64,000 nucleotides of DNA. Source: Nitrospirillum viridazoti CBAmc (GTDB lineage: Bacteria; Pseudomonadota; Alphaproteobacteria; Azospirillales; Azospirillaceae). The notes under the pieces were generated by a model. That model searched no databases, was not told the DNA's origin, and saw only the letters and a list, made by a program, of their open reading frames with translations. The stretch's first letter is position 1, and each line of letters opens with the position of its first letter. Shown here piece after piece: positions 2 through 18,107 of this stretch. The DNA lies in assembly GCF_000730165.1 (NCBI RefSeq), contig NZ_CP022111.1, positions 496,001-560,000 on the forward strand, given 5' to 3'. The position numbers and the translations under genes were made by a program.

Positions 2-1390
2 CAGAATTATCTGGTCGCTCCCAGCCTGCGCTATAAGGATGAGAAGACGGACGCGATCCTGAGCGCCCAGTTCTACGAGCAAGATACCGGCGTAAACCCC
101 TATACCTACATGTATAAGGGGCAGATCGCCCCGGTGAGGACACAGCCCATCGGCCCCGCCGACACCGGCTTCAACGCGAATGACAAGGAAGTCACTTATT
201 CGGTTGAGCACAAGGCCACCGACTGGCTTACGGTCGTCAGCCGCGGGCAATACCAGAACCAGGATCTCAGCTTCGGATTCTATGCGCCTTATGTCGTGCT
301 GGCGCCCACGACCCTGCTGATAAACAATTCGCAGAATGAACAGCGCAACAGCACCTGGTCTCTGGACGATTATGCCAGGCTGAAATTCGACACGTTTGCC
401 ATCAATCACAACATCAACATTGGTTATAGCTTCGTTCAGACGCACGATGACGCGCTTGACTCATCGAAGTCGAGTTTCTTTCCCTTCAGTCTGACGACGG
501 GTGTCGTCAAAGCCATTCCGCCAATCGATGAGATGTCCTACGGCCTGGACTATAATGAACAGGCATTTTACTTCCAGGATATCATGACATGGGGGCCGGC
601 ACACTTCATTGGCGGGGTGCGTCAGAATTGGTTTGACAGCACCAGTCATATTCCAGGGCGCCCAGCCGCCGAGTACTCCGCCTCAGCGTCGGTACCAAGC
701 TTTGGCGCGGTGTACGACATAACCGATAATTTGTCGTTGTTCGGTAACTATGCGCTTGGCTTCATCCCGAATTTTTCCCTGGATTATACCAAGAACAGGC
801 TGCCCGACATCTCCTCCAAGAACCTTGAGGGCGGCGTGAAGCTGTCCATGATGGATCAGAAGCTGGAGTTGGTGGCATCGGTCTTCCGCCTGCAGCAAAG
901 CAACGTGGTGGTTTCCGACCCGGCTCACCCCGGCTATTACATCTCCACCCAAGGCCAGGAAAGCAAAGGCGTCGATCTCGATTTGCGCGGCACGATCCTG
1001 CCCGGCTGGACGGTCGTTTCCACCTTCACCTACAGCAAGTTTGACCAATTGACCCGCAAGCTGGGCGCTTATGTGGCGGGCCAGCCGCGCGTCAAGTACA
1101 GCCTCTATACGTCCTATACTCACCCGGTAGACGAGGACTTGAATCTGACCGTGTCGGGCGGGCTGTACGGAAACTCCAGTTCCTATGTCAATACCAGCGG
1201 GACGGAAAAAGTCCCGGACGCCAAGCAATTCGATGTCAACGTCATTGGCGCCTATAAATCTTGGCAGCTCAATGTGGGTGTCAAAAATCTGTTCGACCGC
1301 CGCAACTACGGTGTGTCGGTTGCCGACAGCTACATTCCTGTTCTGGAACCGCGCACCTGGCACGCCACCTTGTCCTACAAATTCTTCTAA
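2..1390 (+). CDS. TonB-dependent (siderophore-type) outer-membrane receptor, 5'-truncated by window edge
   Basis: The frame is open from base 2 with no start in the window, so this is the C-terminal ~462 residues of a beta-barrel receptor; the plug domain and TonB box lie upstream. Alternating aromatic/polar strands, a late block resembling the FDRRNYG-type end of TonB receptors (V-K-N-L-F-D-R-R-N-Y-G) and a C-terminal ...SYKFF ending in Phe (BamA signal) identify the family. Such receptors import ferric siderophores, cobalamin or peptides across the outer membrane using TonB/ExbBD energy. It lies 25 bp upstream of an SbmA/BacA-like ABC gene and the TldE/TldD pair, so the ligand may be a peptide or peptide metallophore; that substrate is inference. 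Local base composition is clearly more AT-rich than the rest of the window. Confidence 0.9.
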   Translation, partial: QNYLVAPSLRYKDEKTDAILSAQFYEQDTGVNPYTYMYKGQIAPVRTQPIGPADTGFNANDKEVTYSVEHKATDWLTVVSRGQYQNQDLSFGFYAPYVVLAPTTLLINNSQNEQRNSTWSLDDYARLKFDTFAINHNINIGYSFVQTHDDALDSSKSSFFPFSLTTGVVKAIPPIDEMSYGLDYNEQAFYFQDIMTWGPAHFIGGVRQNWFDSTSHIPGRPAAEYSASASVPSFGAVYDITDNLSLFGNYALGFIPNFSLDYTKNRLPDISSKNLEGGVKLSMMDQKLELVASVFRLQQSNVVVSDPAHPGYYISTQGQESKGVDLDLRGTILPGWTVVSTFTYSKFDQLTRKLGAYVAGQPRVKYSLYTSYTHPVDEDLNLTVSGGLYGNSSSYVNTSGTEKVPDAKQFDVNVIGAYKSWQLNVGVKNLFDRRNYGVSVADSYIPVLEPRTWHATLSYKFF

Positions 1391-1415
1391 TGTGCTGAGA
1401 TCGAGTGTCGCCTGA

Positions 1416-3191
1416 ATGAGCACGTCGAACCATACAGTGAAGGAAGCCCGGCCACAGGCCGGGCTTCCCAGCGTCAGCACCGAGGTACGGATACGTCACT
1501 TTCTCAAGCTGCTGACATCATACTGGTTATCCTCGGACTGGATGTTTGCCTGGTTTGGCACCGCTTTCCTTTTGGGGAGCAAGTACATTGTCATTTATAT
1601 GTCAGTACAGGCAAACAGTTGGCAACACTCTTTCTATGATGTCGTCCAAAATAAACAGGTTGATCTTTTCATACCCGAGATCATCAAGTTTTTTCTGATC
1701 AACGGCTGCTCGGCCGTGGTCCTCGTACTTGATGTATACTTCTACGGCATGTTCTCCATGAGATGGCGGACCTTCCTGACCACGGAATATGTGGCGCGCT
1801 GGATGAAGAACAATGGGTTCTATTCCATGGAAAGGGCCGCGTTGATTGATAACCCGGATCAGAGAATAGCCGAAGATATCAAAGATTTCACAAATAGTGT
1901 AATGGCCATAGTAGTAGGACTCTTTGGTTCCATAACAGCCGGCATCAGTTTTGGTTCTGTGCTTTGGAGCGCAGCGGCGCCGATACGGTTCCTGATCGCT
2001 GGGTATCACATCTCCATACCCGGCGACATGCTGTGGTATTCCCTACTGTATACGGTGCTGACCACCGGGGCCATCATCTGGGTCGGCCGGCCCCTGATTT
2101 CCCGCACCATGCGCCAGCAACAGGTGGAGGCCGATTTCCGCTTCGGCTTGATCTACATTCGCCGCAATGCCGAACAAATCGCCTTCCTGGATGCCGCGCC
2201 GACAGAGGTACAGTCCCTACGGGAGGCATTCGACCGTATCAAAAAGAATTATCACCGACTGATTCTGGCCCAGATGGGCATCAACGCGACGGGACACATA
2301 TTCGATAGCGTTGGGAAATTACTTCCCGTGTTTCTGACCATCCCAAAATACTTTGCCGGTACCTTGACCTTTGGCGGTGTCATGGCGGCCCAGGACGCGT
2401 TCCGTCAAATGACCTCTTCTCTTTCATTTTTCTATCAAGCCTTCCAGTCATTCGCCCAGCAAATCGCCAACGTCAACCGTATCTGGGCTTTCGATCAAGT
2501 GCTGGAGCGGGGAGGGGCCTCAGGTATCCAAGTAATAAAGGAAGATAGCAGAGAAATCGCTGCACGCGATCTCCGGCTCGATTTCTACCACAACGCGTCC
2601 CTGACCATCGGCGATTGGACAATCCTGCCGGGCCAGCGCTGGGTGGTGGTGGGGCCGTCGGGAATTGGCAAGAGTTCCACCATGAGGGCCATCGCCGGCT
2701 TGTGGCCGGATGGCGCCGGGGTGGTTCAGGTGCCGTCCCAGGGCCTGACCATGTTCGTGCCACAGCGCCTCTATCTGCCCATCGGAACCCTGAAGAACGC
2801 CATCTGCTTTCCCGGTTCGCCGGATGCGTACGACGACGACCAGGTCATCTCCCTGCTCAGTGTCGTCGGGCTGCAGAAGCATGCCCAGCGGTTGCATGAA
2901 TCCCGCTCCTGGGCCGACCAGCTCTCCCCGGGAGAGCAGCAAAGGTTGGCCCTGGTCCGCATTCTGCTGTACCGGCCGGACCGCCTGGTCCTTGACGAAG
3001 CCACCAGCGCGCTGGACATGGCGAACGCGCTGCATTTTTACGCCACCCTGCTTGAGCGCCTGCCGTCCGTCACCCTGATCAGCGTGGTTCATGATGAGCG
3101 CCTGACGCCGTTCCATACCCACTGCCTGCGGTTGGCGGCGGAGGGGGTGACGCAGTCCGCGCTGGACCCCGAAGAGGAAACCGTATGTTAA
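1416..3191 (+). CDS. ABC transporter, fused permease/ATPase, SbmA/BacA-YddA-like
   Basis: The 591-residue protein has an N-terminal membrane half (about residues 1-350, several hydrophobic helices, ABC_membrane_2/SbmA_BacA type) and a C-terminal nucleotide-binding domain. The NBD shows a Walker A (GPSGIGKSST), a signature-like LSPGEQQRLALVR and a Walker B/D-loop (RLVLDEATSALD). Fused half-transporters of this kind (YddA, mycobacterial BacA) act as dimers in the inner membrane; relatives move peptides such as microcins, bleomycin and other hydrophilic peptides, or vitamin B12. The ATG of the next gene overlaps its stop (ATGTTAA), so the genes are probably translationally coupled. Codon use is AT-richer than the window: bases 1861-1920 contain only 22 G/C of 60. 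The direction of transport cannot be read from sequence. Confidence 0.88.
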   Translation: MSTSNHTVKEARPQAGLPSVSTEVRIRHFLKLLTSYWLSSDWMFAWFGTAFLLGSKYIVIYMSVQANSWQHSFYDVVQNKQVDLFIPEIIKFFLINGCSAVVLVLDVYFYGMFSMRWRTFLTTEYVARWMKNNGFYSMERAALIDNPDQRIAEDIKDFTNSVMAIVVGLFGSITAGISFGSVLWSAAAPIRFLIAGYHISIPGDMLWYSLLYTVLTTGAIIWVGRPLISRTMRQQQVEADFRFGLIYIRRNAEQIAFLDAAPTEVQSLREAFDRIKKNYHRLILAQMGINATGHIFDSVGKLLPVFLTIPKYFAGTLTFGGVMAAQDAFRQMTSSLSFFYQAFQSFAQQIANVNRIWAFDQVLERGGASGIQVIKEDSREIAARDLRLDFYHNASLTIGDWTILPGQRWVVVGPSGIGKSSTMRAIAGLWPDGAGVVQVPSQGLTMFVPQRLYLPIGTLKNAICFPGSPDAYDDDQVISLLSVVGLQKHAQRLHESRSWADQLSPGEQQRLALVRILLYRPDRLVLDEATSALDMANALHFYATLLERLPSVTLISVVHDERLTPFHTHCLRLAAEGVTQSALDPEEETVC

Positions 3192-4543
3192 GCGCCTATA
3201 TCAGCGACAGCGAGGCGGACCTGCGCGCGGCCAGCCAGCAGGCCGTGGAATTGGCCCTGCGCGCGGGCGCCAAGGATGCCAGTGCCAGCGCCTTTTCCGG
3301 TGGCGGGCTTCAGATCGGCTTGCGGGATGGGCGGCTGGAGACGGCCATGCGCAGCGGCCATCGCTCCCTCAACCTGACGGTCTTCCAGGAAGGCAGGGTG
3401 GGTGCCGCGTCCACGACCACCCTCGATCCCGAGGCCATCCAGCGCCTGGTGCAGGAGGCAGTCAGCATCATGCGTTGGGCGCAGCCGGACGCCGACAACG
3501 GCTTGGCGGATGCCATGGATCTGGCCCATGACGTTCCCCACCCCCCGCAGTATGAGCCGGTCAGCGACGATGCCGCGGCCATGGCCGAGGAGGCGCAGAA
3601 CATGCAGCGCGCGCTGCACGCCGTCGAAAAGCCGGCCGGGACGGAGCTGCGAACGTCGGAAGTGGGGCTCAGTTGCTCCGAGACCTTGTCGGTGATGCTC
3701 ACCTCGTCCGGCTTCTGCCGTGCCAGCCTCGGCTCCAGCCAGGCGCGCTGGTGTTCGGTGACGGCGATGCGGGACGGTGCCATGGCACGGGACTATGCGC
3801 AGTCCATGGCCCGCAGGCGAAGCGACCTTCGCGGGACGGATTGGCTGGTGGACCGCGCGGTGCAGGGGGCTGCCGGGCAGTTGGGGGCCCGCACCGTGCC
3901 ATCCGTCACCGGGCTGGTCCTGTTCAGTCCACGGACCGCGCAAGCGCTGATCGAGGATGTGGTCGGTGCGCTGATGGGCGCCGCCCAGTACCGGCGTGCC
4001 AGCTTCCTGGCCGGTGCGCTGGGGGACTTGGTCGCGGCGGACCACATCGACCTGATCGAGGATCCGTTCGAGCCCTGGGGGCTGGCCAGCGGCGCCTACG
4101 ACGGTGAGGGCGTCGCCGGCAGCCGCCGTCCGATCCTGGATGCCGGTGTGGTCAAGGGCTACTTCCTGAACAGCCTGAACGCCCGGCGTCTGGGGATGCG
4201 GACGACGGGCAACGCCAGCGGCCCGTACAACCTGACGCTTTCCAGCCGCCGTCCCGGCGGCGACGGCTTGGCGATGCGGCGGCATCTCGGCACTGGTCTG
4301 CTGGTCACTGCGATCACCGGCGGACGGACCGACCCGGCGACGGGGCATTGGAGCCGGGCGGTCGAGGGATATTGGATCGAGGATGGCGTCCAGCAATTCC
4401 CGGTCGCCGGCATCACCTTGAGCGGGGATATGCGCACGATGCTGCGGGAAATCATCCATGTCGGCGACGACGTCGAGCGATTCGGTGCCTTTCGCACGGG
4501 ATCCGTTCTGGTGGACGCGATGCATATCGGAGGACGGGCATGA
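3185..4543 (+). CDS. tldE: TldE/PmbA-like subunit of TldD/E metalloprotease
   Basis: This 452-residue protein is of PmbA/TldE type. It has the C-terminal core seen in the family (FxGxG-like segment around SFLAGALGDLVAADHI, then DGEGV, a YFLNSLNARRLGM block, TGNASG, and the late VEGYWIEDG-Q-FPVAGITLSGDM block). It lacks the HExxxH zinc motif, as expected for TldE, which lines the cavity of the TldD/TldE heterodimer. E. coli TldD/E removes leader peptides from microcin B17 and degrades unfolded peptides, and homologues serve several RiPP pathways. The start overlaps the end of the ABC gene and its stop overlaps the tldD start (ATGA), so the two subunits should be made in step. Whether this is the organism's only TldE or a cluster-specific copy cannot be decided here. 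Confidence 0.9.
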   Translation: MLSAYISDSEADLRAASQQAVELALRAGAKDASASAFSGGGLQIGLRDGRLETAMRSGHRSLNLTVFQEGRVGAASTTTLDPEAIQRLVQEAVSIMRWAQPDADNGLADAMDLAHDVPHPPQYEPVSDDAAAMAEEAQNMQRALHAVEKPAGTELRTSEVGLSCSETLSVMLTSSGFCRASLGSSQARWCSVTAMRDGAMARDYAQSMARRRSDLRGTDWLVDRAVQGAAGQLGARTVPSVTGLVLFSPRTAQALIEDVVGALMGAAQYRRASFLAGALGDLVAADHIDLIEDPFEPWGLASGAYDGEGVAGSRRPILDAGVVKGYFLNSLNARRLGMRTTGNASGPYNLTLSSRRPGGDGLAMRRHLGTGLLVTAITGGRTDPATGHWSRAVEGYWIEDGVQQFPVAGITLSGDMRTMLREIIHVGDDVERFGAFRTGSVLVDAMHIGGRA

Positions 4544-5991
4544 ACAATCCGCCAAGCATGGATTGGGCCCGGCGTCTGATCCTCCATCCCAATCAGTTGG
4601 ATGAGGTCGAGCTGTCGCGCGCGCTGGAGCAATTGGCGGCCGGTGCCGACTTCGCCGACATGTTCTTCGAAAGCACCAAGTCGCGCGAGTGGCGGCTGGA
4701 CAACGGCAAGGTTTCGGCGGGCAGATTTTCCATCGGCCAGGGGCTCGGCTCCCGCGCGGTGCGTGGCGATCAGGTTTCCTTCGCGCATACCGGTGACTTC
4801 CGCCCGGAGGCCATAAGATCCGCGCATCGGACGGTGCAGGCTCTGACCCGGTTGGGCGGCGGGGTGGCGGCCGCTCCCTCGGTGTCGCTCGTCCCACAGT
4901 TGACGGACCACGGGCTGTACCCCCGGAAGGACCCCTTGGCGTCCGCCGACCTGCTGCCCTGGGTCCAGCTGCTGGAGAAGGTGGACATGCTGGCCCGGGC
5001 GGCGCATCCCGGCGTTCGCCAGGTCAACGCGTCCTTGTCATCGTCGCATCGGGTGGTGTTGATCGCCAATACCGATGGGCAGTTGGTTGCCGACGTGCGT
5101 CCCGTGACGCGGCTGTTCATCCATATCGTGCTGGAGCGTGCCGGGACCCGCGCGCAAGGAAGCGCGGGCGTTGGTGGGCGGTACGGCCTGGAGGGCCTGG
5201 AGGATGAGGCGGTGGCCTCCACCATATCCCAGGCCGTGCGTGTCGCCACCGTCAACCTGGATGCGCGGCCGGCCCCGGGCGGGGTGATGCCGGTGGTGCT
5301 GGGGCCGGGCTATGCCGGCGTCCTGTTCCACGAGGCGGTCGGCCACGGGCTGGAGGGGGATCATCACCGCAAGGGCCTTTCCGCCTTCGCCGGCCGCATG
5401 GGGGAGCGTATCGCGCCCGAGACGGTGACCGTTCTGGATGACGGGTCCCTGCCAGGCCGGCTGGGCAGCCTCGGCGTCGATGACGAAGGAACGCCTGGGC
5501 AAAGGAACGCCCTTATCGAGAACGGCGTGCTGACCGGGCTGATGCAGGACCGCCTGAACGCCCGCCTCATGAACATGAGGCCGACGGGAAATGCGCGGCG
5601 CCAGTCCTATGCGCATCTTCCCATGCCGCGGATGACGAACACCTTCCTCCTGGCCGGCCAGGAGGATCCGAACGACATCGTCGCGTCGGTGGCGCGCGGC
5701 ATCTACGCCCCCCGCATGGGGGGCGGTCAGGTGGATATCACCAGCGGCCGTTTCAATTTCACGGCCGTCGAGGCCTATCTCATCGAGGACGGCAAGATCA
5801 CCGCCCCGGTGAACGGGGTGACGCTGGTGGGGGTGGGGCATGAGGCGCTGCGCCACATCCGTGCTGTCGGCCATGACTGGGCGCTGGATGAGGGAATCGC
5901 GACCTGCGGCAAAGCGGGCCAGACGGTTAGCGTCAGCGTGGGACAGCCGACCCTGCGGATCGATGAAATGGTTGTAAGTGGCAGTGTGTGA
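4540..5991 (+). CDS. tldD: TldD-like zinc metalloprotease
   Basis: From ATG 4540 the protein is 483 residues. The start is chosen because it overlaps the previous stop in ATGA and has an AGGA-type ribosome site at about 4529-4535; a longer in-frame reading begins inside tldE. The TldD zinc motif HEAVGH is at residues 264-269, and a late T-C-G-K-A-G-Q supplies the Cys expected as the third zinc ligand (E. coli TldD uses two His and one Cys). With the TldE-like neighbour it should form a closed-chamber protease cutting unfolded peptides. Co-location with a peptide-type ABC exporter and a TonB receptor suggests leader removal or turnover of a modified peptide (inference). Confidence 0.92.
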   Translation: MNNPPSMDWARRLILHPNQLDEVELSRALEQLAAGADFADMFFESTKSREWRLDNGKVSAGRFSIGQGLGSRAVRGDQVSFAHTGDFRPEAIRSAHRTVQALTRLGGGVAAAPSVSLVPQLTDHGLYPRKDPLASADLLPWVQLLEKVDMLARAAHPGVRQVNASLSSSHRVVLIANTDGQLVADVRPVTRLFIHIVLERAGTRAQGSAGVGGRYGLEGLEDEAVASTISQAVRVATVNLDARPAPGGVMPVVLGPGYAGVLFHEAVGHGLEGDHHRKGLSAFAGRMGERIAPETVTVLDDGSLPGRLGSLGVDDEGTPGQRNALIENGVLTGLMQDRLNARLMNMRPTGNARRQSYAHLPMPRMTNTFLLAGQEDPNDIVASVARGIYAPRMGGGQVDITSGRFNFTAVEAYLIEDGKITAPVNGVTLVGVGHEALRHIRAVGHDWALDEGIATCGKAGQTVSVSVGQPTLRIDEMVVSGSV

Positions 5992-6006
5992 CCTGGAGGA
6001 ATCAAA

Positions 6007-6330
6007 ATGAAAAAAGCGACCAATGTGAATTCTGTGGAATTCAATTCGAAAGTTCTTGATGCTGGAAGCCCTGTCCTGGTGGATTTCTGGGCGCCGTGGT
6101 GTGGGCCTTGCCGCGCACTGGCCCCGATACTTGACGAGGTGGCCGCCGATTTTGACGGCGCCATGGATGTCTATAAAGTCGATATCGAGGCAGAGCCGGA
6201 CGTGGCCGCCCGCTTCGGTGTGCAGACCGTGCCCGTGCTGATCCTGTTCAAGGGCGGTGAGGAGATCCATCGCCGGGTCGGCACCCTCTCGCGCACGCAG
6301 CTCACGGCCATCATCGAGCAGAAATTATGA
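6007..6330 (+). CDS. trxA: Thioredoxin
   Basis: This 107-residue protein is the usual length of bacterial thioredoxin 1. The redox motif W-C-G-P-C sits at residues 31-35 with Cys32 and Cys35 at the standard positions, after V-D-F-W-A-P. The cis-proline loop (Q-T-V-P-V-L) and a C-terminal amphipathic helix are present. A good ribosome site (TGGAGGAA) precedes ATG 6007. There is no signal peptide, so it is cytoplasmic. It lies 15 bp after tldD and overlaps the next gene in ATGA, so it belongs to the same operon. It is probably a dedicated reductant for this cassette rather than the housekeeping thioredoxin, but that is inference from context. Confidence 0.93.
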   Translation: MKKATNVNSVEFNSKVLDAGSPVLVDFWAPWCGPCRALAPILDEVAADFDGAMDVYKVDIEAEPDVAARFGVQTVPVLILFKGGEEIHRRVGTLSRTQLTAIIEQKL

Positions 6331-7175
6331 CGGTCAGCATGTCCGCGTTTCACGGCCGTCCGGAATTGAAGCAGAGGCTGCTCGATAGCATCGACGCGCT
6401 GATCAACCAGGGGCATATCACGGGCAAACGGAATGCCAAGTCCCTGACGGGCCTGTTGTCGATCGACTCTGAAGAGTTCTCAGATGTCTATGGCCTGCCC
6501 CCGTCCCTGGTGCTGTTGCTGGACGTCATGCCGGCCTATGCGGGTAGTGCAGCCGCGATCGCGGCCTGGCGGGATTTGGTGGTGGCCATAGAGCCGGGGG
6601 CGGACCTAACCCTCCCATTGTATGGCTTCCTGCTGATGATGCTGGTCCCGCCACGGGATGACATCGATCCGTCGGACATCACGGGACGTTTGTCGAAACT
6701 TCACCAGAGGCTTTCGGCCGGCGAGGTGGTGGCGCGTGCCGAATGGGCCAGCCTCCGGAACGAGCTGGTCGCCCTGTCGGAAGAGAAGTTTGCGCCGGGC
6801 GATCGGCGTAAACTGCAATATTCCGTTTGGGAAGCGGCCGCGTGGCCGCTGAGCAGTTCCCCCAGCATATTGGTTCAGATGTTCAGAAGCTGGGGGATCC
6901 TGAGCGAGCTGGTGCCGGATCCGGAATGGTCCGACGCCGACGAGGCCCGCAAGGACCAGGTTCTCAACGAGATTTGGCAGGAACAGGCCCCGGCGCGCAC
7001 CGCAGGGGAACGGCCGAACTACCCGGCCCTGTTCAGCGCGCGTGAGCCTGACCTGGCCGGCCGGTTTGAGGCCCATCTGTTCCGGGCGAACGCGGGCGCC
7101 ACCGCGCGGTGGATCGAGGCGGTCAACTATCTGGCGATGCTGTTCACGCGCCAAGGCGTCACGGATCAGGTTTGA
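6327..7175 (+). CDS. Unknown cytoplasmic protein, last gene of TldDE cassette
   Basis: I do not recognise a function for this 282-residue protein. The ATG overlaps the thioredoxin stop (ATGA). It has no signal peptide or membrane helix, no clustered Cys and no obvious catalytic motif. It looks alpha-helical, with Trp-rich segments such as A-A-I-A-A-W-R-D-L and Y-S-V-W-E-A-A-A-W-P-L. Its N-terminus (A-F-H-G-R-P-E-L-K, then a helix and an I-x-P-G-A-D-L segment) reminds me, from memory only, of a family of uncharacterised alanine-rich proteins that begin with an H-G-D-P-x-x-K motif. Tight coupling to trx and tldDE suggests a role in the same pathway, possibly as a partner or immunity protein; this is speculation. 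Confidence 0.8.
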   Translation: MTVSMSAFHGRPELKQRLLDSIDALINQGHITGKRNAKSLTGLLSIDSEEFSDVYGLPPSLVLLLDVMPAYAGSAAAIAAWRDLVVAIEPGADLTLPLYGFLLMMLVPPRDDIDPSDITGRLSKLHQRLSAGEVVARAEWASLRNELVALSEEKFAPGDRRKLQYSVWEAAAWPLSSSPSILVQMFRSWGILSELVPDPEWSDADEARKDQVLNEIWQEQAPARTAGERPNYPALFSAREPDLAGRFEAHLFRANAGATARWIEAVNYLAMLFTRQGVTDQV

Positions 7176-7188
7176 CGGAACGCCTGAT

Positions 7189-7259
7189 GGCGTGGTGACG
7201 CCAGGATCGAAGAAGGCGTCACCACGCCGTGGCCCGAACGAAAGCCGGCCGCTTTCGTT
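7189..7259 (+). terminator. Two tandem hairpins closing the TldDE cassette
   Basis: The first hairpin has perfect 14-bp arms, GGCGTGGTGACGCC (7189-7202) and its complement (7215-7228), with a 12-nt loop. The second has perfect 9-bp arms AACGAAAGC (7237-7245) and GCTTTCGTT (7251-7259) with a 5-nt loop. They start 13 bp after the stop of the unknown gene and lie before a gene on the opposite strand. There is no clear T-run, so termination is likely but not proven; mRNA stabilisation is an alternative. Confidence 0.6.
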
Positions 7260-7359: not shown

Positions 7360-8214
7360 TCATCCCGCCGCTTGCAGCATGGGGTAGGTGAACAGGAAGA
7401 AGTGGGTGGCGTTCAGGCCCACGTGGGCCAGGATGGCCGCCGGCAACCCGCCCCGGCGGTAGGCCAGGCCATAGCCGACGCCGGCGATGGTGCCCAGGAT
7501 CATCCAGCGCGGGCCGCCGCCCAGGTGGGCCAGCCCGAACAGGGCCGAGGCCGCCAGCAGGGCGGCCGCCCGTCCCCAGCGCCGGCGCTCCAGCAGGCGC
7601 GTCAGTCCGCCCTGGATGTAGCCGCGGAACAGCGCCTCCTCCGCCACGGTCACGAAGGCCAGGTTGTCGGCCAGCCAGAGGCCGGCGCCGGCCGGGTATT
7701 TCGGTGCCCAGGCGACGGCGCCCAGCGCCAGGGCCGCCATCAGGCAGGCGACCGAGGCGCCCAGCCAGCCTGCGGCCGCCGCGGTCAGCGTGGCACGCGG
7801 CGGCCGCAGATCGCGGATCGCCGGCATCACCATCAGCAGCCACAGGCCCGCTAGCGGCTTGTCCAGGTTCAGGTAAAGGCTGAAGGGCACGGCATCCGGC
7901 GTGATGCGCGCCGGCCCCATGGCGCGGGGGTTGTGGAAGCCCGGCCACAGATGGGCGGACAAGGCGACGGCCAGCGCCAGGAACAGGCCATGGCCCAGGG
8001 ACCGGACCAGGGGTGGGTGGCGCGCCCCCACCGCCCAGGCCGCGACCCCCAACAAGGCCAAGGCCCCGCCCGCCGGCCAGCCCAGCTGTCCATTCACGGT
8101 CGCCACCGCGTAGCCCACGGCCAGGAAGCCCAAGGCCCAGAGACGGAAACGATCCGTCCAGGCGGTGGCCGTGGCCAGCGCCAGGGCGATCCAGGGAAGG
8201 GAGGACGTCAGCAT
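7360..8214 (-). CDS. CPBP (CAAX protease/bacteriocin-processing) family intramembrane metalloprotease
   Basis: The 284-residue protein is very hydrophobic with about eight membrane segments. It carries the CPBP motif 1 E-E-A-L-F-R (Glu192, Glu193, Arg197), motif 2 F-G-L-A-H-L, and a late H-V-G-L-N-A-T-H that supplies the further conserved His/Asn. Members are glutamic-type intramembrane proteases; some process prenylated proteins or bacteriocins or give self-immunity, and most have unknown substrates. It stands alone, convergent with the TldDE cassette and 33 bp downstream of the uvrA-like gene on the same strand. Proximity to the peptide cassette is suggestive but could be chance. The ATG at 8214 has only a weak ribosome site. 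Confidence 0.88.
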   Translation of the reverse strand: MLTSSLPWIALALATATAWTDRFRLWALGFLAVGYAVATVNGQLGWPAGGALALLGVAAWAVGARHPPLVRSLGHGLFLALAVALSAHLWPGFHNPRAMGPARITPDAVPFSLYLNLDKPLAGLWLLMVMPAIRDLRPPRATLTAAAAGWLGASVACLMAALALGAVAWAPKYPAGAGLWLADNLAFVTVAEEALFRGYIQGGLTRLLERRRWGRAAALLAASALFGLAHLGGGPRWMILGTIAGVGYGLAYRRGGLPAAILAHVGLNATHFFLFTYPMLQAAG

Positions 8215-8247
8215 CGGATCTCGGGTGGCCGGGCGGTTCGCCCATGC

Positions 8248-10824
8248 CTAACCCAAGCGCAGGAAGGGCCGCAAGTGGGGGGCCGTGCGGCTGTCGGGCG
8301 ATGCCGCCACCACCGCCGGCACCCCGGCCGCCACCACACGCCCGCCCTCGTCGCCGGCGCCGGGGCCGATGTCGATCACCCAGTCGCTGGCCGCCGCCAC
8401 GCCCATGTCGTGGTCCACCACCACCACCGTGTTGCCGGCCGCGACCAGGGCGTCCAGTTGGGCCACCAGCCGCTCCACATCCGTGGGGTGCAGGCCCGTG
8501 GTGGGCTCATCCAGCACGTAAAGGGCGCCGCCCCGCTGGGCCCGCTGCAGTTCCGTCGCCAGCTTGATGCGCTGCGCCTCCCCCCCGGAGAACTCGGTGG
8601 CCGGCTGCCCCAGGCGCAGATAGTCGAGGCCCACCTGGCGCAGCACGTCCAGCGACCGGCGCACGGCCGGCACGTCATGGAAGAAGTCGGATGCCGCCGC
8701 CACCGTCAGGCCCAGGACGTCGGCGATGGTCTTGCCGCGATAGGTGATCTCCAGCGTCTGGGCGTTATAGCGGGTGCCATGGCAGACGGGGCAGGGGGCG
8801 TAGACGCTGGGCAGGAACAGCAGTTCCACCATGACGAAGCCCTCGCCCTCGCAGCGGGGGCAGCGCCCCTTGGCCACGTTGAAGGAGAAGCGGCCGGCAT
8901 CGTAACGCCGCCGCTTGGCCTCGGGCGTCTCCGCGAACAGGGTGCGAACATGGTCCAGCAGGCCGGTGTATGTCGCCAGGTTGGACCGGGGCGTGCGGCC
9001 GATGGGTTTCTGGTCCACCCGGATCAGGCGCTTGATGCCGCCCAGCGCGTCCTTGGGCCCGCCTTCGATGCGGCCCTCGGTCTCGGCCACCGGTTCCTGT
9101 TCCAGCATGGCCTCGGCGCCGGCCGGCGGCTCCTCCACCGCCACCGGCGCGCCCAGGGCCTTGCCCACCAGGTCGACCAGCGCCTGGCTGACCAGACTGG
9201 ACTTGCCGGAGCCGGAGATGCCGGTGACGGCGGTCATGACGCCCAGCGGGAAGGCGCAGTCCAGGTTGGTCAGGTTGTTGCGGGTGACGCCGGCCAGGCG
9301 CAGCCAGCCCTGGGGGGCGCGTGGCGTCCGCCGCTGTCCCTCCTCCGCAGCGAACAGGTGGCGGGCGGTCTCTGAGGCCGCCACGCGGCGCAGCCCCTGG
9401 GGCGGCCCGCTGTACAGGATGCGCCCGCCGCCCTCGCCGGCCGCGGGGCCGACATCGACGATCCAGTCGGCATGGCGCACCACGTCCAGGTCGTGCTCGA
9501 CCACGAACAGGGAATTGCCCACGGCCTTCAGCCCATCCAGCGCGCGCAGCAGCGCCTGGGTGTCGGCCGGGTGCAGGCCCGCCGACGGCTCGTCCATCAC
9601 ATAGACCACGCCGAACAGGTTCGAGACGACCTGGGTCGCCAGACGCAGGCGCTGCAATTCCCCGGGTGACAGGGTAGGCGTGCTGCGCTCCAGCGTCAGA
9701 TAGCCCAGGCCCAGGTCCAACAGCACGGCCAGGCGCCGGCACAGGTCGGCGGCGATGCGGGCGATGACGATGGCCGTTTCCGGCCGCGTCCGGCGCAATT
9801 CCTCCAGCCGCTCCGAGCCATCGTCGGCATAGGCGGCGAACAGGGACGCTATGCGCTTCAGCGGCAGCTGGCCCATGGCCGCGATATCGAGGCCTTCGAA
9901 GGTCACCGACAGCGATTCCGGCCGCAGGCGGCGGCCGGCGCAGGTGGGGCAGGCGCTGCTGACCATGAAACTTGCCGCGCGCTTTTTCATCATGGCGCTG
10001 TGGGTGGTGGCGAAGCTGTGCATGACATGGCGGCGCGCGCTGGAGAAGGTGCCCATGTAGTTGGGCGGCAGCTTGCGGCGAACGGCCTCCCGCACTTCCG
10101 CCACGCTGAAGCCGGGATAGACCGGCACCTCGGGCTGTTCCTCGGTGAACAGGATCCAGTCGCGCGTCTCGCGCGGCAGGTCGCGCCAGGGTGTGTCGAC
10201 GTCGATGCCTAGGGTGATCAGGATGTCGCGCAGGTTCTGCCCGCCCCAGGCGGTGGGCCAGGCCGCCACCGCCCGCTCGCGTATGGTCAGCGACGGGTCG
10301 GGCACCATGCTGGCCTCCGTCACCTCATGCACCCGGCCCAGGCCATGGCAGGTGGGGCAGGCCCCCTCCGGCGTGTTGGCGGAAAAGGCCTCCGCCTCCA
10401 GCAGGGGCTGGCCCGGCGGATAGTCGCCGGCGCGGGAGTACAGCATGCGCAAGAGGTTCGACAGGGTGGTGACGCTGCCGACGGAGGAGCGCGCGGTGGG
10501 CGACCCGCGCTGCTGCTGCAGGGCCACGGCCGGCGGCAACCCCTCGATGGCGTCCACGTCCGGCACGCTCATCTGGTGGAACAGTCGGCGGGCGTAAGGC
10601 GATACCGATTCCAGGTAACGGCGCTGCGCCTCGGCATAGAGGGTGCTGAAGGCCAGGGAGGATTTACCGGAACCGGAGACGCCGGTGAACACCACCAAGG
10701 CATCGCGCGGAATGTCCACGTCGACATTCTTCAGATTATGCTCCCGCGCGCCCCGCACCCGGACGAAGCCGGCTTTGGCCGTGTCCGTGTCGGCGGCGTC
10801 TTCGGGATCATGACGGTCGTGCAT
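8248..10824 (-). CDS. UvrA-like ABC ATPase lacking the UvrB-binding domain
   Basis: From ATG 10824 (GAGGAGG ribosome site just upstream) the protein is 858 residues. It has both UvrA ATPase modules: Walker A ([20 protein letters not shown]) and signature [15 protein letters not shown] in the first, [10 protein letters not shown] and [15 protein letters not shown] in the second. Zinc-knuckle CxxC pairs are present ([28 protein letters not shown]). After the L-R-M-L-Y segment there are only about 20 residues before the first knuckle, where canonical UvrA has the long UvrB-binding region. It therefore belongs to the UvrA2/DrrC-like class linked to drug tolerance rather than standard nucleotide excision repair. 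Function beyond DNA-binding ATPase is inferred. Confidence 0.9.
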
Positions 10825-10894
10825 CCATGCCTCCTCGCGCCGGGCAAGGCCCCGGGCAGGCGCCAAGGTGCCACAACCGGCCGGCCCGTGGCAT

Positions 10895-11170
10895 TCAACC
10901 TTGGTCGGGCCCACCCTGTTGGGGCCGCCCTTGGCCGGGCGCCGCCGTTCGTGCCCGCTCGATGGCGGCCAGCACCAGGGGCACGTCACCCACGGCGTTG
11001 GCCAGCAGCAGAACCAGGCTGGCGTTCAGGGCGGCGCTGGCCTCGAACGCCAGCCCCTCATGCGCGGCCAGCAGGGCGGCGTAGATGTCGTCGCCCCGGC
11101 CCCCTAAACGGTCTTCGCCTAAACGATCTCGGGCCGGGCGGTCCGCGGCCAGGGGATTGATGTCAGTCAT
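10895..11170 (-). CDS. DUF2783 family small protein
   Basis: The start ATG at 11170 overlaps the end of the upstream FAD hydroxylase by 8 bp, indicating translational coupling. The 91-residue protein has the core D-D-I-Y-A-A-L-L-A-A-H-E-G-L followed by A-L-N-A-S-L-V-L-L-L-A-N-A-V-G-D, typical of DUF2783 proteins, which are usually encoded next to aromatic-ring flavin hydroxylases. It has no signal peptide and no catalytic motif. The biochemical role of the family is unknown; a structural or accessory partner of the hydroxylase is plausible. The N-terminal ~25 residues are rich in Asp/Arg and probably disordered. Confidence 0.8.
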   Translation of the reverse strand: MTDINPLAADRPARDRLGEDRLGGRGDDIYAALLAAHEGLAFEASAALNASLVLLLANAVGDVPLVLAAIERARTAAPGQGRPQQGGPDQG

Positions 11171-12686
11171 GGGCGGGTTCTCCCAGGGCGCGCCGGTGGG
11201 CGCGGCGGATGGCGGTGGCGTCGACCCCGGCGGGGAAACGGGCGGCGACATGCTGGTCGGGCCTGATGAGGTAAAGGGCGCCGGCGCCGTAGCGCCGGGC
11301 AGCCAGGCCGCCGGCCGGCAGCCGCAGCAAGGGCAGGCCCGTTTCCGCCGGGACCACCGTGTCGCCCACCGCCAGCAGGATGAACCCCCGCCCCAGACGG
11401 TCCAGCACGAAACCGTCATCCAGCGGCGCGTCGGGGCAGGGCGTGCCGGGGGCCAGCAGACCGGGGGCGCCGGGCTCGGCTGGGGTCTGCAGCGACAGGC
11501 CGGCCAGGGAACAGGGCAGGGACAGGCGGCCGGAATTGACCAGGCGGCGGGCGAAGGTATGGTCGGCCGCCAGGTCCAGCACCGCCTGGCGGAACAGGCG
11601 TTCCATGGCGCTCTTGGGTGTCATGAAGGTGGTGGCACGGGCGGAGTTCAGGATGTTCTCGTCCGCGCCCCGGCCGCGCTCCTCATCGTAACTGTCCAGC
11701 AGGGCGGCCGGCGCCCGGCCCTGGACCACCAGGGCCAGCTTCCAGGCCAGGTTGTCCGCGTCCTGGATGCCGCCATTGCCGCCCCGGGCACCAAAGGGGG
11801 AGACGACATGGGCGCTATCGCCGGCGAAGATCACCCGCCCGTGCCTGAAGCGCGCCAGCCGCCGGCACTGGAAGGTGTAGACGGAGGTCCAGGCCAGGCG
11901 GAAGGGCCGATCACCCACCATGGCGCGAATGCGGGGGATGATGCGCTCCGGCCGCATTTCCTCCGCCGGATCGGCATCGGGGCCCAGTTGCAGGTCGATG
12001 CGGTAGATGTCGTCGGGCTGCTTGTGCAGCAGGGCGGACGGGCCGTTGTGGAAGGGCGGTTCGAACCAGAACCAGCGCTCCGCCGGGAAATCGGCTTTCA
12101 TCTCCACATCGGCGATGAGGAAGCGCTCTTCAAAGGCCTGGCCGGCGAAATCCAGCCCCAGCAGGCCGCGCACCGGCGACCTGCCGCCGTCGCAGGCAAC
12201 CAAATAGTCCGCCGCCAGGTCATAGGCGCCGTCGGGCGCCTCCACCCGCACGGCCACACCCGCGTCCTCCGGCGTGACGCCCACCACCCGGTGGCGCCAG
12301 CGCAGGTCGATCAGGTCGGGAAAGTCGGCGCAGCGCGCCACCAGCAGGCGCTCCACCTCATGCTGGGGCAGGTTGATGAAGGCCGGCATGCGGTGCCCGT
12401 CCTCCGGCAGCAGGTCGAAGGCGTAGACCTGGCGGGGACCATGGAACAGGCGCCCCACCTTCCAGGTGACGCCCCGATCCACCATGGGCCTGGCGACGCC
12501 GAGCCGATCGAAAATCTCCAACGTGCGCTTGGCCCAGCAGATGGCGCGGGAGCCCACGGGCAACCGGTCATTGTCGTCCAGCACCACGGTCGCCACGCCG
12601 CGCAGCGCCAGGTCGATGGCGGCCGCCAAGCCCACCGGTCCCGCGCCGCCGACGACGACCGGCGGGCGCCTCTCGTTCCGATCCAT
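11163..12686 (-). CDS. FAD-dependent aromatic hydroxylase (PHBH/MhpA-like)
   Basis: The 507-residue flavoprotein monooxygenase has the N-terminal FAD-binding GxGxxG variant (V-V-G-G-A-G-P-V-G-L-A-A-A-I) and the second FAD/NAD(P)H motif with Asp in D-G-G-R-S-P-V-R. The third, G-D-S-A-H-V-V-S-P-F, is followed by G-A-R-G-G-N-G-G-I-Q-D-A-D-N-L-A-W-K. The length and C-terminal thioredoxin-like extension match MhpA/phenol-hydroxylase-type enzymes, which hydroxylate phenolic acids with NAD(P)H and O2. It is translationally coupled to a DUF2783 protein and lies 54 bp downstream of poxB on the same strand. The exact aromatic substrate cannot be told. Confidence 0.88.
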   Translation of the reverse strand: MDRNERRPPVVVGGAGPVGLAAAIDLALRGVATVVLDDNDRLPVGSRAICWAKRTLEIFDRLGVARPMVDRGVTWKVGRLFHGPRQVYAFDLLPEDGHRMPAFINLPQHEVERLLVARCADFPDLIDLRWRHRVVGVTPEDAGVAVRVEAPDGAYDLAADYLVACDGGRSPVRGLLGLDFAGQAFEERFLIADVEMKADFPAERWFWFEPPFHNGPSALLHKQPDDIYRIDLQLGPDADPAEEMRPERIIPRIRAMVGDRPFRLAWTSVYTFQCRRLARFRHGRVIFAGDSAHVVSPFGARGGNGGIQDADNLAWKLALVVQGRAPAALLDSYDEERGRGADENILNSARATTFMTPKSAMERLFRQAVLDLAADHTFARRLVNSGRLSLPCSLAGLSLQTPAEPGAPGLLAPGTPCPDAPLDDGFVLDRLGRGFILLAVGDTVVPAETGLPLLRLPAGGLAARRYGAGALYLIRPDQHVAARFPAGVDATAIRRAHRRALGEPAHD

Positions 12687-12740
12687 TCCCCGATCCCCCT
12701 GGGCGCACTGTAGACGCCCGGGGGAAAGCGGGCAAAGGCC

Positions 12741-14477
12741 TTACCGCCAGAGGTTGGTCTTGGCCAGGTCCACCAACTCGTCGCCCCGGCCGCTCATCAC
12801 CGCCTTCAGCATGTACAGGGTGAAGCCCTTGGCCATTTCGGCGTTGATGGCCGGCGGAATGGGCAGCTCGGTGCGCGCCACCACCGCGTCCACCAGGACG
12901 GGACCATCATGGGCGAAGGCCTCGCGCAGGCCCGGTTCCACCTCATAGGGGCGTTCCAGGCGGATGCCCTTGATGCCCACCGCCTCCGCCAGCGCGGCGA
13001 AGTTGGGGTTGTCCAGGTCGGTGCCGAAGGGCAGGAAGCCGGTGGACTTCTGCTCCACCTCGATGAAGCCCAGGGCGCCGTTATTGAAGACGATGATCTT
13101 GGCCGGCAGCCCCCGCTGCTTGAAGGTCAGCAAATCCCCCATCAGCATGGTGAAGCCGCCGTCGCCGGACAGGGACACCACCTGCCGGCCAGGGAAAGCC
13201 GCCTGGGCGCCCAGCGCCATGGGCATGGCGTTGGCCATGGACCCATGCCAGAGGGAACCGATCAGGCGCCGCCGGCCGTTCATGGCCAGGTAGCGCGCGG
13301 CCCACACCGTGGGCAGGCCGACGTCGAAGGTGAAGACGGCGTCCTCGGCCGCCAGGTCGCTGACGGCCTTGGCCACCTGCTGCGGATGGATGACGCCGTG
13401 GCCGGCGCCAGGGGTGGCCAGGGCGTCCAGGTCCGCCCGTGCGCGCCGGTAGTGCTTTACCGCCTTTTCCAGATGGGCCGCGTCCGTCTTCGGTGCCAGG
13501 CGGGGCAGCAGGGCGCGCACGGTGGCGCCGACATCGCCCACCAAGCCCAGGTCCAGCGATGCCCTGCGGCCCAGTTGGCCGGGGCGGATGTCGACCTGTG
13601 CCACCGCGACACCCGCGCCCTTGGGATAAAACTGGCGATAGGGGAAGTCCGTGCCCAGCATCAGCAGCATGTCGGTATCCAGCATGGCATAATAGCCGGA
13701 GGAAAAGCCGATCAGGCCGGTCATGCCCACGTCATAGGGATTGTCGTACTCCACATGCTCCTTGCCTTTCAGGGCGTGGACGATCGGGGCCTTCAGCGCC
13801 TCCGCCAGCGCCACCACCGCGTCATGGGCGCCGGCGCAGCCCGAGCCGCACAACAGGGTGACGCGGCCGCTGCGGTTCAGCAGGTCGGCCAGGGCGTCCA
13901 GCTCCGCGTCCTCGGGCACCACCACGGGCGGCTTGGGCACCAGGCCGGCGGGCTTGGGTCGCACCTCCGTCACCGCTTCCTTCAAGGCGACGTCGCCGGG
14001 GATGACGACGACGGAAACGCCCCGCTCGCCGATGGCTGTGCGGATAGCAATCTCCAGGCTGCGCGGCATCTGCGCCGGGTCGGACACCAGTTCGCAATAA
14101 TGGCTGCATTCCCGAAACAGGTCCTGGGGATGGGTTTCCTGGAAATAGCCGGATCCGATCTCGGGCGAGGGGATGTGGGCGGCGATGGCCAGTACGGGCA
14201 CGCGGGACCGGTGGCAGTCGAACAGCCCATTGATCAGGTGCAGGTTGCCCGGCCCGCAGCTGCCGGCGCAGACGGCGATGGTGCCCGTCAGGTGGGCGTC
14301 GGCGCTGGCGGCGAAGGCCGCCACCTCCTCATGCCGCACGGGGATCCATGTGATGTCGCCCCGCCGGCGCAGGGCGTCGGTCAGGCCGTTCAGGCTGTCG
14401 CCCACGACCCCATAGATGCGTTTGACACCGGCGGCGGCCAGCGTGGCGGCGAATTGGTCGGCAACGGTCATGGACAT
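12741..14477 (-). CDS. poxB: Pyruvate dehydrogenase (quinone), ThDP-dependent
   Basis: The protein (578 residues from ATG 14477) aligns by eye along its whole length with E. coli PoxB. It shares the catalytic Glu segment [38 protein letters not shown], the ThDP-binding [11 protein letters not shown]...N-N, and the C-terminal [14 protein letters not shown] amphipathic lipid-binding end. PoxB oxidises pyruvate to acetate and CO2, passing electrons to ubiquinone at the membrane. Start 14477 is chosen over the upstream in-frame ATG 14495 because a GGAG ribosome site overlaps the latter. A GC-rich hairpin lies between it and the upstream gene. Confidence 0.95.
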
Positions 14478-14519
14478 GGGCGGCGGTCTCCTCATGAGGG
14501 CGGGTCAGGGGCAAACGGA

Positions 14520-14545
14520 CCCCGGGGGCAGGGGTTCCCCCGGGG
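14520..14545 (-). other. Intercistronic GC hairpin upstream of poxB
   Basis: Perfect 9-bp arms (CCCCGGGGG at 14520-14528 and CCCCCGGGG at 14537-14545) flank an 8-nt loop between the dehydrogenase stop (14557) and poxB start (14477). There is no T-run after it on the minus strand, so it is more likely a weak terminator, attenuator or mRNA-stabilising element than a strong terminator. Confidence 0.45.
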
Positions 14546-14556
14546 GCGTCGGTTCG

Positions 14557-15543
14557 TCACAGGTCGGCGCGCGACCGGCCCAGGACCTTGCGGTTCACGA
14601 CGTGCAAGGGCATCTCGCCCCGCAGCACCCGGGCGACCTCGCCCGGCGCGCCGCTCTGCAGCTCGGCGAAGGCCTCGACCGAGTACCAGGCGGCGTGCGG
14701 GTTGAGGATGACGGTGTCGCGGCCGCGCAAGGGGTGCTCCGCCGGCAGCGGTTCCGGCACCGTGGTGTCCAGCGCCGCGCCCGCCAGGCGTCCGGCGTCC
14801 AGCGCGCGGACCAAGGCGTCCTGGTCCACCACCGCGCCCCGGGCGCAATTCACCAGGATGGCGCCGGGGCGCATCTTGGCGAACGCGGCGTCGTTGAACA
14901 GGCCGCGCGTTTCCGGCAGCAGCGGGCTATGGATGGAGACGAAGTCGGCGCGCGCCAGCAGCGTGTCGAAATCCACCTTTTCGCCCGGCGCGTCGAACTG
15001 CCCGGCCTGGACGAAGGGGTCATACCACAGCACGGCCATGCCAAAGGCGGCCAGGCGGGCGGCCACCCGGCGGGCAATGTTGCCGAAGCCCACCAGGCCC
15101 AGCGTCTGGGTGGACAGCCGGCGCATCGGCGCGGCCGCCATCACGTCCCAGCGGCCGCCGCGCACGCTGCGGTCCAGCAGCGCCGTTTTGCGCGCGGCGC
15201 TTAGCAGCAGGGCCACGGTGTGGTCCGCCACCTCCTCCACGCAATAAGTCGGGTTGTTGGTGACGATGATGCCGGCGTCGGTGGCGGCGTCCAGGTCTAT
15301 GGTGTCCACGCCGATGCCGTAGCGGGCGATGATCTTGCAGCGGTCCATACGGGCCATGGCCTTGGCGGTGATGGGCCCGGCATAGGTGTTCAGCAGGGCG
15401 TCGCAGTCGGCTGCCGCCTCCAGGAATTCATCCTCCGTCTTGGTGCGCAGGGCCACCACATCGACGTCGGGCCCCAGGATGCGACGCTCCACGTCCACGC
15501 TGTCCCAGACATAATCGGATATCACGACGTTCAATCGGCTCAT
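14557..15543 (-). CDS. D-isomer-specific 2-hydroxyacid dehydrogenase (CtBP-like)
   Basis: The 328-residue NAD-dependent dehydrogenase has the catalytic Arg segment I-I-A-R-Y-G-I-G-V-D-T-I-D. Its Rossmann motif is G-L-V-G-F-G-N-I-A-R-R-V, followed by an acidic/neutral ribose site near W-Y-D-P-F. The second catalytic region is N-C-A-R-G-A-V-V-D, and the His-containing N-P-H-A-A-W-Y-S follows with the conserved E upstream in V-P-E-P-L. It reduces a 2-keto acid to a D-2-hydroxy acid or the reverse. It is 17 bp from the FAH-family gene upstream and should be co-transcribed. The C-terminal-binding-protein subfamily resemblance does not fix the substrate. Confidence 0.88.
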   Translation of the reverse strand: MSRLNVVISDYVWDSVDVERRILGPDVDVVALRTKTEDEFLEAAADCDALLNTYAGPITAKAMARMDRCKIIARYGIGVDTIDLDAATDAGIIVTNNPTYCVEEVADHTVALLLSAARKTALLDRSVRGGRWDVMAAAPMRRLSTQTLGLVGFGNIARRVAARLAAFGMAVLWYDPFVQAGQFDAPGEKVDFDTLLARADFVSIHSPLLPETRGLFNDAAFAKMRPGAILVNCARGAVVDQDALVRALDAGRLAGAALDTTVPEPLPAEHPLRGRDTVILNPHAAWYSVEAFAELQSGAPGEVARVLRGEMPLHVVNRKVLGRSRADL

Positions 15544-15560
15544 GATGTCGTCCTCTTGGA

Positions 15561-16421: not shown

Positions 16422-16460
16422 GGGATGTGGTTCCTTATCGCGTTGGGGATTGGACGGGCG

Positions 16461-17321: not shown

Positions 17322-17489
17322 GGGTCGGGGTGCGCTCCATCGCCGTCAGTGGTGTGGATGACCCCGATCTTTCCCTCGCGGACGGGTGCCGGTCTTGTTG
17401 GAGGTGGCGGTACTTTGAAGGTTAGGCTGGCAAGGGCGGGCCGTTGCCCGGAACGCTGCGACCGACGCCGGAAACCGGAACGGACGCCT

Positions 17490-18107
17490 TCAATTGTCCC
17501 GGCTGTGCGTGGGCCGCCGCCAGGTGCGCCGCCAGCGCAACGGGGTTTCCCCCACGAACTGGCGGAACAGCCGGGTCAGGTGCGCCTGGTCGGCCATGCC
17601 GCAGCCATAGGCGATCTCGCTCAACGGCTGGTCGGTGGTCAGCATCAGGATCTGGGCCTGGCGCACGCGGCGCTTCACCACGTAGGTGTGGGGCGTTTCC
17701 CCGACGCTGGCGCGGAAGGCGCGGGTGAAGTGGTTGGTGCTGAGGTTGGCCAGGGCGGCCAGCTGATCCACCGGCAGGGGCTGGGCCAGGTTGGCCTGGA
17801 TATGGCCCATGACGCAGCGCAACTGCCAAGGGGCCAGGCCGCCCTTGTTGGCCCCGGTCTCGGTCGCGCGCGCCGTCGGCAGCAGGATGGCCTCATCCAC
17901 CGGGGGCTTTTCCGTGCCGTCCAGCAGCGCGGCCAGTTGGTCCAGGCAGCCGCGCGCCCGTTCCAGGTCGTGGTCCAGCGCCGCCTGGGCGGCGCTGACC
18001 AGCGTGACGATCCGGCGGTCGTCCCACGGGGCCACGTGAGGCAGGGGAGCCGGCGGGGGCGGGAGGAAGGAAACGGGCCGCGTCGGGGTCTGGAGGGGCG
18101 CTTGCAT
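17490..18107 (-). CDS. AraC-family regulator, short form (copy 1)
   Basis: The 205-residue protein has a short N-terminal helix-rich region (no recognisable cupin sensor) and a C-terminal AraC double helix-turn-helix of about 100 residues, with L-S-T-N-H-F-T-R-A-F-R and I-A-Y-G-C-G-M-A-D-Q-A-H-L-T-R-L-F-R-Q. ATG 18107 has a CAGGAG ribosome site. It is strikingly similar in arrangement and sequence to the second regulator at 20334-20894, including a shared G-G-L-A-P-W-Q before the first helix. It sits just downstream of the haloperoxidase-type hydrolase and upstream of the catabolic group, so either could be the target. Confidence 0.88.
   Translation of the reverse strand: MQAPLQTPTRPVSFLPPPPAPLPHVAPWDDRRIVTLVSAAQAALDHDLERARGCLDQLAALLDGTEKPPVDEAILLPTARATETGANKGGLAPWQLRCVMGHIQANLAQPLPVDQLAALANLSTNHFTRAFRASVGETPHTYVVKRRVRQAQILMLTTDQPLSEIAYGCGMADQAHLTRLFRQFVGETPLRWRRTWRRPTHSRDN

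Follow-up and report, generated by a model that had tools for sequence, protein, structure and literature searches.

Here, we describe a block of seven genes at the start of a 64,000-nucleotide stretch of the genome of Nitrospirillum viridazoti CBAmc (bases 496001–560000 of contig C2, NZ_CP022111.1, in a 7.38-Mb genome; hereafter the window). In order, they encode a LysR regulator, a TonB-dependent receptor, an SbmA/YddA-type ATP-binding cassette (ABC) transporter, TldE, TldD, a thioredoxin, and a 282-amino acid (aa) protein without a known family, the last of the block, which we call U. We consider the chances about even that the block is an import system for a peptide from outside the cell, probably one with disulfides, which would then be reduced and digested in the cytosol. 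This reading draws on the gene content, the inheritance of the block, the pairing of thioredoxin with U, the differing proteases that accompany the same core, and the separate clade of the ABC protein, all of which are observed.

Only part of the block lies within the window. The LysR gene is one gene ahead of it, at 11929–12861 of L005, a stretch that reaches upstream of window base 1. The receptor gene (L005 13123–15390, 755 aa) starts approximately 0.9 kb upstream of the window edge and ends at window base 1390, with the C-terminal 462 residues encoded at 2–1390. The remaining genes follow on the same (+) strand: the ABC transporter with its fused ATPase (1416–3191, 591 aa), the TldE (PmbA) homologue (3185–4543, 452 aa), the TldD homologue with the motif HEAVGH (4540–5991, 483 aa), the thioredoxin (6007–6330, 107 aa), and U (6327–7175). 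A 25-bp gap separates the receptor stop (1390) from the ABC start (1416) and a 15-bp gap the TldD stop (5991) from the thioredoxin start (6007), whereas overlaps join ABC to TldE (7 bp, 3191/3185), TldE to TldD (4 bp, 4543/4540), and thioredoxin to U (4 bp, 6330/6327). The coordinates and the Pfam and NCBIfam matches thus confirm the gene content and order given in a preliminary description of the window (receptor, ABC, TldE/TldD, thioredoxin, unknown protein), and also its statement that each junction after the receptor is an overlap or a short gap; its picture of a tightly packed peptide-handling operon, which joins outer- and inner-membrane transport to a peptide protease and is not a standard named system, likewise stands. 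The extent that it gave (2–7259) does contain the block as seen in the window, but U ends at 7175 and the operon begins one gene upstream, with LysR.

Protein U has no match in Pfam or NCBIfam at an E-value of 0.001 and none in PHROGs, and the best among PDB sequences has an E-value of 0.18; Pfam matches between 0.01 and 0.1 occur in only one or two family members each and look like chance. Across 32 members of the family, W140 (window numbering) is invariant, and G56, P58, and G91 are nearly so. The AlphaFold2 model is essentially all helical (pLDDT 88.3, pTM 0.81), and a Foldseek search of the PDB with it returned nothing at an E-value of 0.001 or better (best 0.24). In ten of the system loci (L022, L118, L029, L030, and L124–L129) and in three standalone genes (L026, L035, and L036), U is fused behind the thioredoxin, and at L027 it is fused in front of an S9 prolyl oligopeptidase. 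Since the linker and part of U are poorly resolved in the structure model of the thioredoxin–U fusion (pLDDT 78.0, pTM 0.65), we make no claim on the placement of the domains.

A census of genomes using U profiles alone, in which the same centre genomes recur between samples, gave matches to profile A1 in 5 of 398 genomes sampled across the phylum and 9 of 82 in the window's own family, and to profile A3 in 4 of 150, 7 of 149, and 5 of 116 genomes of three other families; with frequencies this low, U is rare and patchy. We counted 32 U loci, not including a fragmentary contig (L015) or the additional U genes of L019 and L034. At 26 of these loci, thioredoxin is fused to U or no more than 400 bp from it; the receptor is present at 23, an ABC gene of the block type at 22, TldD at 17, TldE at 16, and LysR at 8. 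In the 29 loci treated as system loci, TldD was found 20 times and TldE 19 times. Here, one may compare a control set of 80 loci with other ABC genes, taken among the matches listed of a contig profile search with the ABC alignment: thioredoxin reductase (TrxB) occurs at 6 of 29 system loci versus 0 of 80 control loci, M3 oligopeptidase at 5 versus 0, and a Cds1-like cysteine desulfhydrase at 4 versus 0 (one of these, at L031, scores 547.3 bits, under the cut-off of 600). The controls also gave one thioredoxin and one TldD (1/80 each). No thioredoxin, U, or receptor of the block type was found at the 15 control loci that were annotated, from which it follows that the ABC superfamily is broad.

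Within the genus, all seven genes are present with their order kept in three genomes (G003, G004, and G006); a fourth (G001) offers only a 5.7-kb contig carrying part of the block, and two (G002 and G005) gave no match to U. To delimit the block, homology to the window locus was determined using blastn (hits longer than 150 bases) on 18 kb fetched from each of G004 and G006 and 16 kb from G002. The homologous region corresponds to L005 11745–21146 in G004 and 11922–21184 in G006; it begins at the LysR start or a little ahead of it, ends with U, and is the only homology in the 18 kb. In two of the three same-genus carriers compared, different flanks thus surround the common block. G003 matches the window locus on both flanks too, placing the block at the same site there, and only a chemotaxis gene matches within the 16 kb of G002, the genome without U. 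The ABC gene of G003 reads as two pieces in different frames and may be damaged or mis-sequenced. Taken together, the block looks to have been inherited as one piece and was probably acquired. The GC content is 0.53–0.58 for LysR, receptor, ABC, and thioredoxin, 0.63 for U, and 0.66–0.74 for six neighbouring genes, which TldE (0.69) and TldD (0.67) resemble in composition. Outside the genus, the same order occurs at L018, L031, L032, and L033 and on a Sphingomonas plasmid (L020); an order kept in both same-genus and more distant genomes is not due to chance. An array of short repeated ORFs (88 and 95 aa) lies at L032 1–4000, near that genome's copy of the block.

The ABC protein carries Walker A, signature, and Walker B motifs and matches Pfam ABC_membrane_2, SbmA_BacA (126.3 bits, cut-off 24), and ABC_tran (63.2 bits, cut-off 25); its top solved structure is 6tqe, an ABC transporter ATP-binding protein/permease. 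In a tree and alignment that left out the two-piece G003 sequence, a branch with 99/98 support separates 24 system ABC proteins from YddA and 13 other SbmA-like fused ABC proteins. Membership of this clade was not selected for in the loci found through U alone.

The protease pair can be assigned with similar detail. TldE scores 261.8 bits on NCBIfam PmbA, under its cut-off of 438, and aligns with Escherichia coli PmbA (5nj5_B) over residues 7–450, matching Pfam PmbA_TldD domains 1 and 3; TldD scores 520.1 bits on NCBIfam TldD (cut-off 513) and aligns with E. coli TldD (5nj5_A) over residues 3–482. HExxxH is kept in all 34 TldDs compared, and with this motif and its TldE partner, the block TldD belongs with the TldD/TldE (M103) proteases. 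The pair is an additional set: two more genes with PmbA/TldD domains are found in the window genome (C1:2323502 and C1:2339218), and in each of the 15 genomes with U that were tested, a TldD gene lies apart from U. In a tree, the 19 system TldDs stay separate from the 15 housekeeping ones; as the dividing branch has a support of only 40/36, a single origin of the system TldDs is not established. The thioredoxin has the motif WCGPC, scores 112.4 bits on TIGR01068 (cut-off 96.8), and is of the cytosolic type, with no signal-like N terminus by eye; CxxC is present in 32 of 32 thioredoxins examined and WCxxC in 31.

Seven of the more distant loci (L020–L025 and L118) were found, among the matches listed, by plasmid searches with ABC, TldE, U, and thioredoxin–U; linkage of these genes there is therefore partly a matter of selection. 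Sphingomonas parapaucimobilis (L020) adds to the common order a thioredoxin reductase (unannotated, found by tblastn), an M3 peptidase, and a cysteine-synthase-family gene, and Novosphingobium (L021) has TldE, TldD, thioredoxin, U, TrxB, and M3, its record ending inside the ABC gene. Burkholderia cenocepacia (L022) has receptor, ABC, thioredoxin–U fusion, TldE, and TldD; inspection of its translations by eye also shows genes resembling FecR, FecI, TonB, ExbB, and ExbD. The protease differs elsewhere: Sphingomonas NY01 (L023) has an M16 protease (25.5% identity to PqqL over 247 aa), receptor, ABC, thioredoxin, and U, with no TldD/E; Methylobacterium (L025) has an S8 protease, receptor, U, ABC, thioredoxin, and FecR/sigma-type genes; and L027 has S9, M17, and M24 proteases. 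No protease was seen in Paraburkholderia (L024: TonB-ExbB-ExbD, receptor, ABC, thioredoxin, U, sigma factor, and FecR) or in Burkholderia glumae (L118: receptor, TonB-ExbB-ExbD, ABC, thioredoxin–U, then sfnG and msuE). One family (L125–L129) keeps an identical order of receptor, ABC, thioredoxin–U fusion, TldE, and TldD beside divergent FecI-FecR-TonB-ExbB-ExbD, and its TldDs score very high on the E. coli-type TldD model, which suggests that the family is Enterobacterales-like. L122 has TrxB, M3, and a gene combining aminotransferase V, metallohydrolase, and rhodanese, the last by its predicted domains sulfur chemistry again. Two more ABC matches are on Azospirillum plasmids, one in an unrelated neighbourhood and the other in a record without annotation, and a TldE search across the class at E 1e-60 returned only the window's own genome (1/240), the threshold being too strict. 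Because the loci keep receptor, ABC, thioredoxin, and U but vary in their protease genes, a digesting system fits better than a maturing one.

We propose that the receptor would take an extracellular peptide across the outer membrane and that the ABC transporter would carry it into the cytosol. There, the dedicated thioredoxin, together with U as its putative substrate-handling partner, could reduce the disulfides and open the peptide, which TldD/E, accepting only unfolded chains, would then degrade; in some relatives, the extra peptidases, thioredoxin reductase, and cysteine desulfhydrase may finish the job. That the substrate has disulfides is suggested by the neighbouring genes. TldD/E is reported to accept only unfolded peptides, with recognition independent of sequence (excerpts of PMC10885120), a restriction which would explain the presence of a thioredoxin in the block. 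Both transport steps have peptide precedents, given that microcin J25 enters via FhuA plus SbmA (excerpts of PMC8183687) and that BacA/BclA are hypothesised to import cysteine-rich NCR peptides (excerpts of PMC7230169).

Several points weigh against import followed by digestion, and should be kept in mind. Six of the 32 U loci have no nearby thioredoxin; two of these are weak U matches (L134, E 2.6e-8; L139, E 7.8e-4), and four are good matches from one distant family (L028 and L131–L133). Many of the 32 are close relatives, and the counts are therefore not independent. The queries for the control set came from system loci, and many control loci are from distant phyla. Of the four Cds1-like genes, three (at L018, L020, and L031) come from related clusters, the gene at L018 being 9.4 kb distant on the opposite strand, and the window block itself has neither desulfhydrase nor thioredoxin reductase. 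The direction of the ABC transporter cannot be read from its sequence, and the role of U is guessed from its company. Finally, a receptor that falls just within a siderophore-receptor subfamily and FecI at 10 of the 32 loci fit iron uptake equally.

Metal uptake is the strongest rival, though we think it improbable, at somewhat better than one chance in five. What is imported would be a siderophore or metallophore of peptidic nature, or else a small metalloprotein, as with Fus, and its metal would be set free in the cytosol once thioredoxin had reduced it and TldD/E had hydrolysed it. The receptor, with Pfam TonB barrel and plug domains, scores 228.3 bits on NCBIfam TIGR01783 (the siderophore-receptor subfamily), just above the cut-off of 223.5, and the nearest solved structures are FpvA, the enantio-pyochelin receptor, FhuE, the pyochelin receptor, and FhuA. 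Its N-terminal extension aligns with FpvA from residue 20; the Pfam STN model gave no report for it at an E-value of 0.001 and is seen, with sub-cut-off scores, in four of the nine receptors that were scanned. Genes for iron-type regulation and energising are present at U loci (FecI 10, FecR 9, TonB 7, and ExbB 8 of 32), and with FecI in about a third of loci this rival stays alive; receptors are also paired with a protease in Fus-type systems (excerpts of PMC6793856). However, no ferric reductase, periplasmic binding protein, or siderophore esterase was found among the profile-scanned neighbours, which are part of all neighbours, and the cysteine desulfhydrase and oligopeptidases would be superfluous for metal release. 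When 15 promoter regions were scanned against a Fur consensus, at least 30 of 200 shuffles did as well as the best match of each region; this is a weak test, and iron may still exert control by other means.

Less probable again, at roughly one chance in six, is detoxification, in which an antimicrobial peptide, host defensin-like or bacterial, would be taken up into the cytosol for destruction, the role hypothesised for BacA/BclA towards NCR peptides. The SbmA/BacA domain of the ABC protein is consistent with this, as is the reported countering of NCR peptides in rhizobia by BacA/BclA and the M16 peptidase HrrP (excerpts of PMC7230169), and four carriers are of plant origin (L020 cabbage, L023 mango, L025 tomato, and L118 rice), though this may be database bias. 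A dedicated, energised outer-membrane receptor would, however, let in more poison, and the surface-signalling FecI/FecR and sulfur genes fit feeding better.

The preliminary description had favoured a natural-product system, whose product would be exported and whose precursor would lie upstream of the window. TldD/E does mature microcin B17 and other peptides, often from outside the gene cluster (excerpts of PMC10885120), and in ribosomal peptide biosynthesis, it would trim the leader and the ABC protein would export the product; this we now regard as very improbable, since the block and the 14 kb upstream hold no precursor or modifying enzyme, the shared block is bounded by LysR and U, and relatives have a different protease or show none. 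The 14 kb upstream of window base 1 hold genes for HypF (hydrogenase maturation; L005 54–2891, approximately 11 kb upstream of the window), an MFS carrier, a 237-aa protein with no Pfam match, an NtrC-type regulator, a histidine kinase, an OprB porin, a chemotaxis receptor, and LysR, with no YcaO, radical SAM, lanthipeptide, or ATP-grasp enzyme. Nor was a modifying enzyme for ribosomal peptides found among the neighbours scanned with Pfam between 14 kb upstream and window 14495, or among the profile-scanned neighbours of the other clusters, where many neighbours are unscanned. The search for a precursor or modifying enzyme within some 15 kb upstream, proposed in that description, was thus negative as far as tested (14 kb, and scanned neighbours elsewhere), whereas in the synteny comparison that it also proposed the genes stay together in relatives rather than being scattered. 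The LysR–receptor gap (261 bp) is the only one in the block able to hold a precursor, the remaining gaps being 25 bp or less; a small precursor there was considered and rejected, as no ORF is conserved in the four genus members compared. An inverted repeat, GGAATC-N6/7-GATTCC, at L005 13068–13086 in the window genome is kept in four genus members.

Among described systems, the protease-associated import of Fus (Pectobacterium) and PqqL-YddB (E. coli) is the closest in kind, and the block would be a new form of such receptor–protease import. Like the block, these systems combine a TonB-dependent receptor with a protease and are sporadically distributed; pqqL, yddB, and the ABC gene yddA lie together in E. 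coli K-12, and some FusA homologues have other proteases nearby (excerpts of PMC6793856). They differ in that the window block has no FusC/PqqL-type M16 protease, its protease being the cytosolic-type TldD/E, and in that thioredoxin and U are extras. The block ABC protein is only 28.5% identical to YddA over 554 aa and falls in a separate clade, and seven system receptors, including that of the window, have no significant BLAST match when compared with YddB. Membership of the YddB receptor family was rejected on that ground and because the nearest solved structures are siderophore receptors. The main text of the Fus-type paper (PMC6793856) does not contain TldD, SbmA, or "ABC transporter".

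Microcin routes (uptake through FhuA and SbmA, and TldD/E in microcin B17 maturation) use the same receptor class, importer family, and protease family; unlike the block, with its dedicated genes and second TldD/E set, they exploit scattered housekeeping proteins. To our knowledge, the BacA/BclA and HrrP proteins of rhizobia are not encoded in one operon and come with neither a dedicated receptor nor U. The resemblance to the block lies in an SbmA/BacA-type importer, cysteine-rich peptides, and the involvement of thioredoxin and a peptidase (excerpts of PMC7230169). No description of a cassette of this make-up was found in the titles and abstract openings listed by searches of an open-access library, and excerpts of PMC3751524 and PMC7688217 had no bearing on it. 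There is a fair chance that the thioredoxin–U core makes the system a class of its own.

A bolder form of import and digestion, which we offer tentatively and hold to be less likely than the general reading, is that the block represents an undescribed class of nutrient system, in which disulfide-bonded peptides or miniproteins would be harvested whole and unlocked in the cytosol by thioredoxin and the helical U for the peptidase of the operon. U would then be a peptide-presenting thioredoxin adaptor with a new fold, and the thioredoxin–U pair, not the protease, would define the system. The block unites four parts that are known singly (a siderophore-class receptor, an SbmA/YddA-type transporter, TldD/E, and thioredoxin), and would suggest what the transporter and protease families, best known in connection with antibiotic peptides, do in their native setting; for SbmA, excerpts of PMC8183687 call the native function unknown. 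It would also give a function-linked handle on the uncharacterised U family and a possible entry route into Gram-negative cells for disulfide-stapled peptides.

U-family genes were also seen in other settings. The window genome has a second, thioredoxin-fused copy of 412 aa (L026 9487–10725; U match at C1 1477874–1478353), which adjoins a MacA-type efflux gene, with no receptor or TldD/E in the 20 kb seen; L035 and L036 hold similar genes. In one distant family, U-like genes without thioredoxin adjoin a TonB receptor (L028 9606–10535), a TIG-repeat protein with a weak M66 peptidase match (L131 5516–6589 and L132 9744–10772), or an autotransporter (L133 9391–10686). The regions L019 and L034 look as though two systems had been placed on top of each other: besides ABC and receptor, they have TldD, TrxB, several thioredoxins, and several U-family genes. 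Immediately downstream of U in the window, at 7360–10989 on the opposite (−) strand, an Rce1-like CAAX protease is encoded beside a 913-aa UvrA-like protein.

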